NCBI RefSeq assembly: GCF_000017545.1
Contig: NC_009718.1
Span: 310,001 to 374,000, forward strand
DNA length: 64,000 nt
Origin: Fervidobacterium nodosum Rt17-B1
Lineage (GTDB): Bacteria > Thermotogota > Thermotogae > Thermotogales > Fervidobacteriaceae
Direction of reading: 5' to 3'
The notes under the pieces: model-generated
What the model was told of the DNA's origin: nothing
Database searches by the model: none
The model's input: only the letters and a program-made list of their open reading frames with translations
Part shown: positions 33,165 to 38,737 of the stretch, in pieces
How positions within the stretch are numbered: the first letter of the stretch is position 1
Layout: the number at the start of each line of letters is the position of its first letter
Program-made: the position numbers and the translations under genes

Positions 33165-34223
33165 GATAGTGTTAACTTGTAGTGATGAAAGAGTGTAATT
33201 GTGAAAGAATGCGATTGATATTGCCATTGTGCGTTTTCCAAAGATTCTTCACTACACAAAATCCTTGAATATATTTCGCTAAGTTCTTCGTATTCTTCAG
33301 CCCTCGCTTGAGTCGGAAAAAGTCTTTCAACAATGAAAACTTAGATTCACATTGATTGTTTTTACCGAGCGGTACCACTACGTGATTGATATTTCTGAAC
33401 AACAGCTTTACTGCACTTTCATATGCACCAAGTCCATCAGTAATAAGTTCAATGTTTCTAGGTTTTGAATTACCAAAGAACTTCTCGAGCAATACTTTGA
33501 CTTGTCCCATATCACGATACTTTGAGACATGCCAACAAAGAATTAAGTTAGTTTCGTGATCAACTAATAGCCAAACATAGTACTTTTGTTCTTTGAACAC
33601 AAGAACAGTTTCATCAGCATGAACTGAGAAAACATTTTCGATGGTAAATGTTGGAAAAAGTACAGAGAATAAAGTACACAATTTAATAACCCATTTGTAT
33701 ATGGTGACATGAGATACTTTGATATTAAGAGAATGAGCAAGAGAGCGATAAGACATATTGTGTTTCATATACAAAACAAAAGCCTTTAAGACGAAAAAGA
33801 TAGGGAAGCGGAAATATTTAAATTTCTCAGGAATAAGGGTGACTGGTTCGGGGAGGTTAAAAGGTACTCTATCTTTGGTACGACAAGCTCTACAACGGAA
33901 GACAACGAAAGAGCGACGGACTTTGTAAATTTGCATAGATTTACCACAAGAAGTGCATTTGGGATAAGGGAAAGGGAAGTTTTTGCGTTTTTGAGAATGG
34001 GAGAGTTTGAAAGAATGATGGCAGAGTTTGCAAAGGAATTGTTGGTTACCGTATTTGTCATGACCGTTTTTGTATAAGCTGGTGGAACCGCATTTTGGAC
34101 AAGAGAGCGTTGAGTTGTTCATATCGGGATACCTCCTTTGTCGAGAGTTGGTTGGGGGGTGTCCCCTCTTTATAAGGATAATGCGGTTTTTGGAAAGTTT
34201 CAATACTTTTAGTTAACATTATC
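33165..34223 (-). mobile_element. IS6-like insertion sequence, copy 1 (1059 bp)
   Basis: Ends are GATAGTGTTAAC on the left and, read inward from the right, GATAATGTTAAC. The inverted repeat continues imperfectly into AGT and TGAAA blocks. The ends were set by comparison with copy 2 at 54086, whose borders are fixed by a target duplication. The transposase stop codon lies inside the left terminal repeat. The right terminal repeat carries TTGAAA, which with TATCCT 17 bases further in forms a transposase promoter. The eight flanking bases (AATCTAAA left, GTTCTGAC right) do not match, so one flank has been lost or rearranged. Confidence 0.87.
33172..34122 (-). CDS. IS6-like DDE transposase, copy 1
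   Basis: The protein has 316 residues from ATG 34122, with AAAGGAGG upstream; the longer open frame has no site. N-terminal zinc-ribbon CPKCGS..C..C and a second CxxC pair (PKCTSCGK, CRACR) are followed by a helix-turn-helix (SYRSLAHSLNIKVSHVTIYKW). The DDE catalytic core has HADETVLVF, ITDGLGAYE and NNQCESKFSLLK. The DET around the first Asp and the WHVSKYRD block resemble the IS6 family. No frameshift is seen, so it could be active. Copy 2 at 54093 is clearly related but diverged. Confidence 0.92.
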   Translation of the reverse strand: MNNSTLSCPKCGSTSLYKNGHDKYGNQQFLCKLCHHSFKLSHSQKRKNFPFPYPKCTSCGKSMQIYKVRRSFVVFRCRACRTKDRVPFNLPEPVTLIPEKFKYFRFPIFFVLKAFVLYMKHNMSYRSLAHSLNIKVSHVTIYKWVIKLCTLFSVLFPTFTIENVFSVHADETVLVFKEQKYYVWLLVDHETNLILCWHVSKYRDMGQVKVLLEKFFGNSKPRNIELITDGLGAYESAVKLLFRNINHVVVPLGKNNQCESKFSLLKDFFRLKRGLKNTKNLAKYIQGFCVVKNLWKTHNGNINRILSQLHSFITTS

Positions 34224-35551: not shown

Positions 35552-36691
35552 TTAGAAATATTCTATATTTACTATTTTTCCTTTCTTTTCTAATATCTGT
35601 GCCAAGTCATGTATTAATCTGAATTTGAGTGATATGTCATGTGAAAATAGAGGATTTTGGTGAGCAGGATTTATAGCGCGCCCAACCAAGAAAGTTATAA
35701 CATCGGATTCTTCGAACATATCTATTAATTTTTGAGCTCCAACTCCCAATTGAGTTTCTTGAGATTCGTAATATCTGAAAACTTGAGAAAGAGTTATTAT
35801 GCCTTCCGTTACAAGGTCTATTCCTTCCATATATCCTATTGGTGGTGAAATTTCAGAGATACTCGAAAAATCTATTTCTACTTTCCTTCCAAGAACTTTT
35901 TCAACAATTTGGCTTGTTGTTCCGCCACAGATAACTTTCTTACCTTCTGATTCAATTAATCTTTTTACAACAATCTCGTCTAACTCCTTCCTTTCTGGTG
36001 GACCAATCATTATTGTCAAATTCCTTCTCTCTCTGATTTTAATTACGCAAACTGTTGCATCATCACCTTTCGTTCCAGTATCAAGAGCTTCTGCGAGTCT
36101 TACAAGGTGTAAAGCAATGCTTTGCGGATCAACTTTGTGCTTTATCAAGTTAATCAATTCGAATTTTACATTCTCTAATCCGAACCCAAAAGGAAATCTT
36201 TTCGTTCCCATTCCAGCTTGAGTAATTCCATCGGTCATTAAAAATATGAAATCACCCGGCTGGACGCTAAATTGTGAACAATACACTTTTCTATTTTCTA
36301 TCTCAATATGTTTTTTAGTAAGCTCTACCATCTCGTTTCCTCTGTATACCAAGACAACAGGAAAATCGTATTCGTATATGTCACATTCACCTGTTTCATG
36401 GTCAACATGGCAAGTTGCTAATGTTGCATAACTTATTCCACGTACTTTACACGTTGGAAGCGTCGAGATAATGGATTTGAAAACTTCTGAAATATGGACA
36501 TTTTTAAATACCATAGTTGTTGCCATCGAAGCGGTGAGTGTGGATAGTATGCTTGCCTTTATGCCACTTCCGAGACCATCTGAAACACTAACAACTGTCT
36601 TTTTTTCGTCTCTTTTTATCTTTATCGTATCACCACAAACTTCTTCGCCTGCTTTGTTTTTTTGCGCATAATGTATCTCACACGTCAGCAT
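35552..36691 (-). CDS. SpoIIE-type PP2C serine phosphatase
   Basis: The protein has 379 residues. The N-terminal PP2C-like domain (1-225) has metal-site motifs SDGLGSGIKAS (about 36), MTDGITQAG (about 150) and GDDATVCVI (about 215). Residues 225-379 are a separate alpha/beta domain with PPERKELDEIVVKRLIESEG. The start is ATG 36691, overlapping the HydS-like gene by 14 bases, so the two are coupled. As in Thermotoga and clostridia (from memory), a SpoIIE phosphatase beside a sensory hydrogenase suggests that redox or H2 state is passed to a phosphoprotein switch. The partner is not visible here. Confidence 0.9.
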   Translation of the reverse strand: MLTCEIHYAQKNKAGEEVCGDTIKIKRDEKKTVVSVSDGLGSGIKASILSTLTASMATTMVFKNVHISEVFKSIISTLPTCKVRGISYATLATCHVDHETGECDIYEYDFPVVLVYRGNEMVELTKKHIEIENRKVYCSQFSVQPGDFIFLMTDGITQAGMGTKRFPFGFGLENVKFELINLIKHKVDPQSIALHLVRLAEALDTGTKGDDATVCVIKIRERRNLTIMIGPPERKELDEIVVKRLIESEGKKVICGGTTSQIVEKVLGRKVEIDFSSISEISPPIGYMEGIDLVTEGIITLSQVFRYYESQETQLGVGAQKLIDMFEESDVITFLVGRAINPAHQNPLFSHDISLKFRLIHDLAQILEKKGKIVNIEYF

Positions 36692-38330
36692 TTTCTTCCC
36701 CCATGTACTTTTTAAATTCTAAAAAGTGGGCTTTTGTCTCAGCTATAGACTCACCGAGAATGCTTGCAATGTCTTGCGCGAGTTTCATTTGATTATTTAA
36801 AACTTCTTCTATCTTTTCTATCGTCTTACTTTTTAATTCATTCATTCGTTCTTTTTGGATTATTAACTCAGTTATGTCGACAAGTAATATAACGTTTCCA
36901 CTATCTTCTGGTAAACTGAACGCTTTTGGATAGAAATAAAACTTTTTCCCATTTATATAAATCTCGTGGATTCTGTTTGGATCGTTGAATATTCTTTCGC
37001 AAATCTCAATGAGTCTTTCCTTTTCGTAATTTACAAATAACTTCTTAGCTGATTCGTTGATGTAAAGTAAATCGTTATCTTTGAATATCAATATACCATT
37101 GGGTGATTCATCGACAACTTTGTTGGAAACTGATGAAACTTTTTCAATAAGGTAAGCAAAACACATATCTTTTTCTGCCTTACCAAGATAAACAGCTTTT
37201 GCTTTCTCAACACAAGTGTCGTATCCACAACCGCTACAATTTAGTTCCTTCTCTGGAGAATCTTTTTCCATAGACTTCAGAATATTTTCTATCTTTTCTT
37301 TACTGATTTCTACCTTTTTAGATTTATTTATAAATTGTTTTTTTAAACTAAAATTATACTCCTTTAAATCTATATACTTAGGCTGAATAGATGTATTGTT
37401 AATTTGTTTGATTACACTATTTAATTTGAAGCGTTTTTCAAGAATATTAACATTTCTATCGGTTGCTGGACCATTTAGACATCCACCGTGACAAGCAGAC
37501 ATTTCTATAATTACTTTTTCATTTATATTTTCATTGAAGTGTTCAAGAAAATCGATAATGTTGTTTACGCCTTCTAAAATCAAATGATTATAAGTATTTT
37601 GTTGAGCTGAAAATAATATTCCACCGGATGTTGGATAAAAACGTGTTCTTTTTGGATAAGGGAAATCTGGTAACCTTTCTTTGCAATCATCAACAATTAT
37701 TTCTCTTTTTTTTATAAATTTTTCAAGTTCTTCAAATGTTAGAACAACGTCGTAATAATTTTCAAGTTCTTCTTTTTTTGCTATACACGGTCCGACAAAA
37801 AGCTTTGGAAGGTCGCCAAAAAGTTGGTTTAAAAACTGAGAATGTGCAATTGCAGGTGATACAATCGGCATCATGTACGGTATCAAATGCGGATAGTGTT
37901 TTTCTATTAGATTTACAATTACCGGGCAAGATGTTGTAATCAACGAGTGATTAGAATTTTCGTATATTCTAATATATTCTTCCGTAACAAACTCTGCACC
38001 GACAGCTGTTTCGGAGATGTAAACGGCGCCCAGTGACTTTAGAATAGATAAAATCTTTAATGGAGCATCCTCATTTCCATAAAATGACGGTGCGATAGAA
38101 ACAATGAAAGGTTTATTTATTAAAGATTCAAATTTTGTTATATCATCACGGTAATTTTTTGCGTTCTGTGGACATACATTAACACATGTTCCACACAAAA
38201 TACATTCATCTTCTATGACGAAAGATACATCATTTTGAAAACTTATCGCTTTTACAGGACAATTTCTAAGACATTTGTAACAGTATTTACAATTGGCACG
38301 ATTTGAAATAATATATAGACTTTCCTTCAC
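36678..38330 (-). CDS. HydS-like sensory FeFe-hydrogenase protein with PAS domain
   Basis: The protein has 550 residues from GTG 38330, whose G is shared with the stop TAG of the upstream gene. Order: two 4Fe-4S ferredoxin motifs (CKYCYKCLRNCP, CILCGTCVNVCP), a hydrogenase large-subunit-like domain with degenerate H-cluster loops (TTSCPVIVN, FVGPCIAKKEE, EMSACHGGCLNGP), an extra Fe-S motif CSGCGYDTCVEKAK..C (about 370-395), a PAS domain (about 400-500, ESPNGILIFKDNDLLYIN) and a C-terminal coiled coil. Loop 1 has a single Cys where catalytic enzymes have two. It is likely a sensor of H2 or redox state and not an enzyme of bulk H2 production. Confidence 0.9.
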   Translation of the reverse strand: MKESLYIISNRANCKYCYKCLRNCPVKAISFQNDVSFVIEDECILCGTCVNVCPQNAKNYRDDITKFESLINKPFIVSIAPSFYGNEDAPLKILSILKSLGAVYISETAVGAEFVTEEYIRIYENSNHSLITTSCPVIVNLIEKHYPHLIPYMMPIVSPAIAHSQFLNQLFGDLPKLFVGPCIAKKEELENYYDVVLTFEELEKFIKKREIIVDDCKERLPDFPYPKRTRFYPTSGGILFSAQQNTYNHLILEGVNNIIDFLEHFNENINEKVIIEMSACHGGCLNGPATDRNVNILEKRFKLNSVIKQINNTSIQPKYIDLKEYNFSLKKQFINKSKKVEISKEKIENILKSMEKDSPEKELNCSGCGYDTCVEKAKAVYLGKAEKDMCFAYLIEKVSSVSNKVVDESPNGILIFKDNDLLYINESAKKLFVNYEKERLIEICERIFNDPNRIHEIYINGKKFYFYPKAFSLPEDSGNVILLVDITELIIQKERMNELKSKTIEKIEEVLNNQMKLAQDIASILGESIAETKAHFLEFKKYMGEENADV

Positions 38331-38620
38331 TATTTATCACCTTCGTTTATGAATTTATTTCTTAGATATTCATATACAACTTCTATGTTTTCACAATTAA
38401 TATTTGATAATAGTTTATCATCAATTAGTATATTTACCCCATTTACACACATCCCGAGGCATAGTGAACCCTTGAGTTCAACTGAGTTTTCTAATTTATT
38501 TTTTTCGATAAATTCTTTGAGTCTTTCTGCTATTGAGTACGAACCTTTTAAATGGCATGAACTACCAAAACATATACTAACTACGAATTTTTCGTTTTTT
38601 AAATCTTTTTCACTTTCCAT
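38330..38620 (-). CDS. Thioredoxin-like 2Fe-2S protein (NuoE-like)
   Basis: The protein has 96 residues from ATG 38620, with GGAGATGGGAG upstream. It has four cysteines in the pattern of the thioredoxin-like ferredoxin family: CFGSSCHLKG (two) and CLGMCVNG (two). It probably carries one 2Fe-2S cluster and passes electrons to or from the HydS-like sensor, to which it is coupled by a TAGTG overlap. Confidence 0.9.
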   Translation of the reverse strand: MESEKDLKNEKFVVSICFGSSCHLKGSYSIAERLKEFIEKNKLENSVELKGSLCLGMCVNGVNILIDDKLLSNINCENIEVVYEYLRNKFINEGDK

Positions 38621-38702
38621 ATGCTCTCCCATCTCCAAAAATTTTTGATTTGTTTCGTTAATTATTTCACGATAATTCCAGTTCTATGATAATACCTTGG
38701 AT

Positions 38703-38737
38703 AAAAAAAGTCAAGTGCCCCAAATCGGGGCACTTGT
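38703..38737 (-). terminator. Terminator after hpf
   Basis: CAAGTGCCCC and GGGGCACTTG form a 10-bp stem. On the minus strand it is followed by GACTTTTTTT. It ends the long run that begins at recJ. Confidence 0.93.

Follow-up and report, generated by a model that had tools for sequence, protein, structure and literature searches.

A HydS-type sensor and a SpoIIE-type phosphatase of Fervidobacterium nodosum as the detached half of a hydrogenase operon

To our knowledge, HydS proteins have long been studied as putative H2 sensors whose output is not known. A locus of Fervidobacterium nodosum Rt17-B1 raises the question of what such a sensor might act through, and whether it could do so at a distance from a hydrogenase. 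The locus lies in a 64,000-nt stretch of the genome (NC_009718.1, 310,001-374,000; hereafter the window, whose own numbering is used below), the genome being one contig of 1.95 Mb, and consists of three successive minus-strand genes for a thioredoxin-like [2Fe-2S] protein, HydS and a SpoIIE-type PP2C phosphatase. A preliminary description of the window had regarded this trio as standing alone. We found instead that it is the upstream half of an operon of the Thermotogales, (2Fe-2S)-hydS-pp2c-hydC-hydB-hydA-rex, that was parted by rearrangement; it is a detached member of the HydS/Hfs kind, and ordinary in that respect. We consider it probable that the trio forms a group C HydS signalling module, split from hydCBA-rex and co-repressed with it by Rex, in which HydS gates the phosphatase in trans.

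A split operon with a shared operator

The three identities proposed earlier were borne out by domain matches, as was the tight coupling of overlapping genes: the 2Fe-2S and HydS genes share 1 base (38330), and the HydS and PP2C genes share 14 (36678-36691).

38330..38620, minus strand: gene for the thioredoxin-like [2Fe-2S] protein, 96 aa from the ATG at 38620 (PF01257, 5.2e-9), with an alternative in-frame TTG start at 38638
36678..38330, minus strand: gene for the HydS-type sensory [FeFe]-hydrogenase, 550 aa, GTG start (PF02906, 7.7e-40; Fer4 and FeS domains)
35552..36691, minus strand: gene for the PP2C phosphatase (PF07228, 1.3e-20)

Relatives of HydS (match cut-off E <= 1e-30) were found in 35 of the 45 genomes of the order that we surveyed, and this retention excludes a chance arrangement. 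We examined the loci of 31 other genomes (G007, G010 and G038, among the 35, were left out), some phosphatase frames being confirmed separately. In 23/31 the trio runs directly into hydCBA, a count that takes in one locus with a small ORF in between (L060), four in which hydC was hidden in the frame list (L072, L076, L077, L078) and one cut by a contig end (L085). In the remaining loci, five to six genes separate the trio from hydCBA (3/31), the cluster is divergent (1/31, L080), or hydCBA lies outside the locus (4/31; L055, L061, L062, L063), as it does in the window, where hydC-hydB-hydA does not follow the trio on the same strand. In most of the Thermotogales loci, rex comes after hydA. The operon of Thermotoga maritima HydS (TmHydS) is likewise said to hold another hydrogenase gene, according to the portion of the report cited (PMC10055695), whereas that of the window is split.

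The missing half is present in the F. nodosum genome: hydC-hydB-hydA-rex occupies 230.6-235.65 kb, at a distance of 113 kb from the trio, and a second hydA is found with HydG, HydE and HydF at 244-254 kb. The Rex, HydG, HydE and HydF proteins of this genome all score above their NCBIfam cut-offs. The preliminary statement that the trio occurs without hydABC thus applies within the window and fails genome-wide, and a trio lacking its hydrogenase is ruled out. Among the other genomes with a detached trio, G019, G020 and G021 carry hydB elsewhere at 88-91% identity, and G029 has only a relative at 52%. The downstream neighbour of the trio, which we take to be a polyprenyl synthetase-like gene, is the same in G019, a sister species whose phosphatase is 82% identical to that of the window; G020 and G021 have other genes there. 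A homologous cluster is present in Fervidobacterium sp. isolate UBA8200 (phosphatase identity 73%). One gene beyond the phosphatase, on the same strand (33172-34203), is what we presume to be a transposase-like gene, which may have brought about the break in the operon.

Upstream of the trio we identified a candidate operator and promoter:

38655..38672, minus strand: Rex-type operator TCGTGAAATAATTAACGA (motif scans)
38686..38714, minus strand: predicted sigma-70-type promoter, TTGACT and TATCAT 17 bp apart, just upstream of the operator (read from the sequence)

The operator weights were set by hand after viewing the sequences of a first scan, which demanded TTGT and ACAA too rigidly and missed the window site. 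With these weights, the best site scored at least 12 in 25/25 regions (24 before a trio and one before the hydC of this genome), with shuffle p <= 0.023 in 24 and 0.053 in one; this result is in part circular. The 1.95-Mb genome contains exactly two copies of the pattern TYGTGAAANNNNTMACRW, one ahead of hydC and the other ahead of the trio; the window contains one, against 0.02 expected. Because these two exact matches are the only ones in the genome, the two halves of the operon are probably still co-controlled. An exact match stands before the trio in 25/31 loci, and one also stands before hydC in cases that were unseen when the pattern was fixed (3/3 in G019, G020 and G021; 5/5 in L056-L060). 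Over 559,257 bases of context, 40 matches sorted by hand comprised 31 before the trio, 5 before hydC and 4 elsewhere. The published accounts, as far as the cited portions go, place hydrogen production among the 12 operons of the T. maritima Rex regulon (PMC8836258) and give the Staphylococcus aureus Rex site as TTGTGAAW4TTCACAA (PMC2883068). In L064, L066-L069 and L171-L173, paired overlapping Rex-type operators of opposite orientation, 14 bases apart, precede the trio or hydC.

The sensor and its phosphatase

The HydS protein can be divided as follows:

38160..38300, minus strand: two N-terminal [4Fe-4S] sites, residues 11-57 (eight invariant Cys; Fer4 matches)
37467..38111, minus strand: H-cluster domain, residues 74-288, with TSCP, GPCIAKK and SACHGGC (PF02906; four invariant ligand Cys)
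37161..37244, minus strand: C-terminal Cx2Cx4Cx16C [4Fe-4S] site, residues 363-390 (PF04060, 3.1e-6; spacing as in TmHydS and TamHydS)
36861..37133, minus strand: PAS domain, about residues 400-490 (PAS_8, weak; stand-alone homologues above the Pfam cut-off)
36711..36833, minus strand: conserved C-terminal helix, about residues 500-540, of the QMxxAQEIAxLLGExxAETK type (alignment)

An alignment of 14 HydS proteins shows no variation at the four H-cluster cysteines (C135, C182, C280, C284), nor at the cysteines of the N-terminal clusters and of the C-terminal Cx2Cx4Cx16C site. In the accompanying 2Fe-2S protein, the cluster cysteines C17, C22, C54 and C58 (numbered in the ATG form) are invariant in 10 aligned proteins. 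An H-cluster-deficient pseudo-hydrogenase is ruled out, since the four ligand cysteines and HydE, HydF and HydG are all there.

The loops around the H-cluster carry the changes of a sensor. Loop 1 reads TTSCP, with the single cysteine noted in the preliminary description, and places Ser134 at the position of the proton-relay cysteine C299 of CpI; loops 2 and 3 read GPCIAKK and SACHGGC, with Gly180 and Ser278 at the positions of M353 and M497. In the parts of the reports cited, sensory [FeFe]-hydrogenases lack Cys299, and TmHydS has Gly and Ser, respectively, at the M353 and M497 positions (PMC8163306, PMC10055695); the loss of the loop-1 cysteine is thus typical of such enzymes in general, not peculiar to this locus. 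TmHydS (group C, M2f) also resembles the window protein in its C-terminal cluster and PAS domain, and differs in having Ala rather than Ser at the C299 position. TamHydS of Thermoanaerobacter mathranii (group D, M2e) shares the C-terminal Cx2Cx4Cx16C cluster and the absence of C299, but has no PAS domain.

The earlier designation as a HydS-like PAS sensor therefore stands for the H-domain and loop changes, while the PAS domain itself is weak in the window protein (E 0.0018). PAS_8 matches occur in 7/14 HydS relatives (E <= 0.1), stand-alone PAS homologues reach 2.7e-12, and a separate PAS protein in L080 aligns with HydS residues 410-541, so that it is through homologues that the window HydS would qualify as a PAS-bearing group C (M2f) protein. 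Judged from its sequence, it is a group C (M2f, HydS-type) [FeFe]-hydrogenase-like PAS sensor with a putative role in H2 sensing. In one relative (G035, L079:7267-8831) HydS is broken into two frames, with the phosphatase and hydCBA intact.

The phosphatase comprises two domains:

36029..36691, minus strand: SpoIIE-type PP2C catalytic domain, residues 1-221 (PF07228; invariant Asp; structure model)
35552..36028, minus strand: conserved, Rossmann-like C-terminal domain, residues 222-379 (alignment and model; without a Pfam family)

All 46 aligned sequences keep D21, D38, D154, D210 and D211, and the structure model (pLDDT 92.7) aligns with SpoIIE (5ucg) over 214 residues in VIA-align (Z 23.4, rmsd 2.8). 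The PP2C output proposed earlier is accordingly supported by a PP2C fold with intact catalytic Asp residues, the activity being predicted. Catalytic fold and Asp residues are as in SpoIIE, RsbU and RsbX; the differences are that the window phosphatase has no fused sensor and that its C-terminal domain was not seen in those proteins by Pfam.

Residues 222-379 had no Pfam match common to the 46 members, although they carry conserved GPP, CGGTT, EG and INPAHQNP motifs. Modelled alone, the domain is alpha/beta (pLDDT 91.9), and its strand order suggests a Rossmann-like fold. Foldseek against the PDB gave no hit at E <= 0.001, and a sequence search of the PDB returned nothing credible. The best VIA-align scores were obtained with 7bkb_H (Z 9.4, rmsd 3.0, 122 aligned) and with 6s6y_B of the FhcABCD complex (Z 9.2, rmsd 2.8, 114 aligned); complex I chains such as 8zp8_S1 scored Z 7.1. 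These values hardly exceed the 7-8 that chance typically gives, and for this reason we assign the domain to no fold family.

A wider cassette around the phosphatase

When 84,980 species genomes were scanned with an alignment of the phosphatase, at least 583 relatives were returned; the counts for wider loci given below refer to the best 80 of these, whose neighbours were typed by tblastn on stretches that often end at contig ends. Directly upstream of the phosphatase stands a HydS-type sensor in 65/80 loci, a PAS-only protein in 13/80, and nothing in the two where the phosphatase is at the contig start. A 2Fe-2S gene is present in 70/80, and a HydA-like or HoxH gene on 63/80 stretches (31/38 among those over 15 kb), the cyanobacterial "HydA" label deriving from HoxU. 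The tail helix is shared by both kinds of sensor: its strict motif occurs in 50/67 HydS-type and 18/18 PAS-only proteins, the other 17 having recognisable variants, and in L080, where PAS has its own gene, HydS retains the helix only. That separate PAS gene belongs to a divergent second cluster (L080:5308-10378, with a counterpart at L063:13210-16914) of group B hydA (by NCBIfam for L080), 2Fe-2S, HydS without PAS and phosphatase.

We tested 12 of the 13 PAS-only genomes (L125 was left out). All eight cyanobacterial ones had no match to PF02906 or HydG, at a genome completeness that was not given; the four non-cyanobacterial ones all had PF02906, and three of them HydG. Since the cassette occurs in 8/8 of these cyanobacteria without an [FeFe]-hydrogenase domain or HydG, the H-cluster domain appears to have been added to a broader phosphatase cassette linked to hydrogenases. 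In 6/8 of the cyanobacterial loci hoxH is present, and across the cyanobacterial phylum the C-terminal phosphatase domain was found in 112/292 genomes. In ten further, presumably cyanobacterial stretches (genomes of 2.9-6.3 Mb), hoxE/F/U/Y/H is followed by 2Fe-2S, PAS and phosphatase in six; in L218, L219 and L221 no PAS or 2Fe-2S was detected, with hoxW next in two, and the short contig L212 has neither 2Fe-2S nor PAS. Ten others of the phylum (L222-L231; nine of 1.7-2.1 Mb, and G069 of 3.3 Mb) all show the HydS form, joined in the nine small genomes by a group-B-type hydA. Within this phylum, small genomes have the HydS form, whereas the larger, hox-bearing ones have the PAS-only form.

The balance stands about even for a broader claim, that the real unit is a phosphatase cassette linked to hydrogenases, which predates [FeFe] sensing and extends beyond it. 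This cassette would comprise the 2Fe-2S protein, a helix-ended PAS protein and the PP2C phosphatase; in [FeFe] bacteria the PAS protein would have gained an H-cluster domain by fusion, and cyanobacteria would use the cassette within the [NiFe] hox operon without an H-cluster, so that it would serve as a general dephosphorylation reporter of hydrogenase or redox state with swappable sensor heads. A literature search found no account of a 2Fe-2S/PAS/phosphatase cassette, nor, among the papers listed, of a phosphatase in cyanobacterial hox operons, of which the cited portions of PMC3858816 and PMC13421787 make no mention; absence from print is not thereby proven. What deserves following up is the occurrence, across phyla, of the cassette in hox operons without an H-cluster. 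If it does work in that form in cyanobacteria, the label of H2 sensor fits one version only, and the hox hydrogenase acquires a candidate for its regulator. Many Firmicutes loci (L102, L146, L154, L160, L166 and others) have two tandem 2Fe-2S genes before hydS, several of them after an APH/RIO-like kinase or AdhE gene.

A proposed route from sensor to target

If the trio is a signalling module as we favour, NAD+-bound Rex would repress both halves of the operon, and high NADH would free them together. The trigger would be either H2 at the H-cluster of HydS or the redox state of the Fe-S clusters, with the 2Fe-2S protein as electron partner; it would alter both PAS and the conserved C-terminal helix, and thereby hold or release the phosphatase in trans. 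Once released, the phosphatase would dephosphorylate a Ser/Thr phosphoprotein, and the expression of hydrogenase and fermentation genes would be adjusted. Coupling of HydS to the phosphatase is more likely conformational, via PAS and helix, than an electron relay, and the C-terminal domain of the phosphatase probably gives substrate or partner specificity. Regulatory domains are described, in the part of the source cited, as switching SpoIIE-type phosphatases (PMC5468089). Together with the tail helix common to the sensors, the phosphatase and its conserved C-terminal domain suggest a testable physical output for HydS, and the split operon offers a natural test of a sensor half acting in trans on hydABC.

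Other known systems also resemble the trio. In the hfsABCD operon of Thermoanaerobacterium saccharolyticum, a proposed regulator of hydrogenase and fermentation, a PAS-bearing [FeFe]-hydrogenase (HfsB) is likewise followed by a serine phosphatase (HfsC), and then by a hydrogenase (HfsD), as the cited portions describe it (PMC5707799, PMC11837493); the window differs in having no following hydrogenase gene, and the adhE target is absent from its genome. Deletion of hfsA or hfsB is reported there to raise ethanol yield, NADH-ADH activity and adhE expression, and deletion of hfsB to raise hydrogenase activity, with no ethanol rise on deletion of hfsC or hfsD (PMC5707799). Because of these published genetics, we would expect HydS, by analogy, to be an H2-lifted brake: without H2 it would restrain the phosphatase, H2 or the loss of HydS would lift the restraint, and phosphatase action would raise hydrogenase and fermentation genes. 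In Ruminococcus albus, a PAS-bearing group C HydS and a putative Ser/Thr phosphatase are found beside a hydrogenase and AdhE, and this cluster is reported as 111-fold lower in co-culture, again in the cited part of the paper (PMC6776011); the adjoining hydrogenase is of a different class, and AdhE is absent in the window genome.

Several observations weigh against this reading. In T. thermosaccharolyticum, according to the portion cited, overexpression of hfsD alone, without hfsC, gives high ethanol (PMC11837493), and because hfsD alone suffices the phosphatase can play no more than an indirect part in that species. Nor can the link to adhE be transferred, because the F. nodosum genome has no fused AdhE (no fused Fe-ADH frame exceeds 410 aa). 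The reversed operator pattern matches the genome four times, so that two forward matches are no enrichment in number and their weight lies in their location; six loci (L072, L076, L077, L079, L080, L085) have no exact operator before the trio. Scanned alone, the PAS domain of the window HydS stays below the Pfam cut-off. As regards H2 sensing, the cassette does without the H-cluster altogether in the cyanobacteria tested.

Among the alternatives, one that we regard as possible though doubtful is partner switching, in which the phosphatase would act on a STAS anti-anti-sigma protein, which would titrate an RsbW-like kinase and free a sigma factor, as with SpoIIE and RsbU. SpoIIE and its relatives are the phosphatases nearest to the catalytic domain, and the search for STAS and anti-sigma kinase genes suggested in the preliminary description turned up, genome-wide, three intact STAS genes along with one gene for a strong RsbW-like ATPase; however, none adjoins the trio, three other SpoIIE-type genes could serve the STAS proteins, and no STAS or HATPase gene was recognised among the recurrent unlabelled neighbours of the 80 loci (clusters in at least 3 loci). 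A further STAS-domain gene of the genome is interrupted by two in-frame stops and appears to be broken (G000:C1:513651-513893, L046).

An equally tentative alternative is that the phosphatase counters a dedicated Ser/Thr kinase, directly on metabolic enzymes or regulators such as AdhE, PFOR or hydrogenase. An APH/RIO-like kinase lies on 13/80 stretches and AdhE on 12/80, although neighbourhood is no proof of substrate, and the hfsB deletion raised NADH-ADH and not NADH-ALDH activity, which its authors, in the cited portion, read as possible post-transcriptional control (PMC5707799). Against this, no homologue of the kinase was found in the F. nodosum genome at E <= 0.01, in a search without a positive control, and the absence of a fused AdhE bears on this idea too.

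That HydS is a low-activity working hydrogenase passing electrons, with the phosphatase a mere operon neighbour, seems distinctly unlikely. All H-cluster ligands and maturases are present, and TmHydS and TamHydS turn over H2 slowly, as stated in the cited parts (PMC8163306, PMC10055695), but the loop changes are typical of sensory forms, the order of sensor then phosphatase is kept across phyla, and the tail helix is kept where the H-domain is absent. Decay of the detached trio as a remnant of the broken operon, for which the broken gene order and the other downstream genes in G020 and G021 would speak, is highly improbable given the open frames, the invariant catalytic residues, the identity of the phosphatase and of the downstream neighbour shared with G019, and the retained operator and promoter-like sequence.

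A second protein of the genome combines PAS and a SpoIIE phosphatase in one chain (L047:2580-3638; G000:C1:222.58-223.64 kb), about 7 kb from rex-hydABC.

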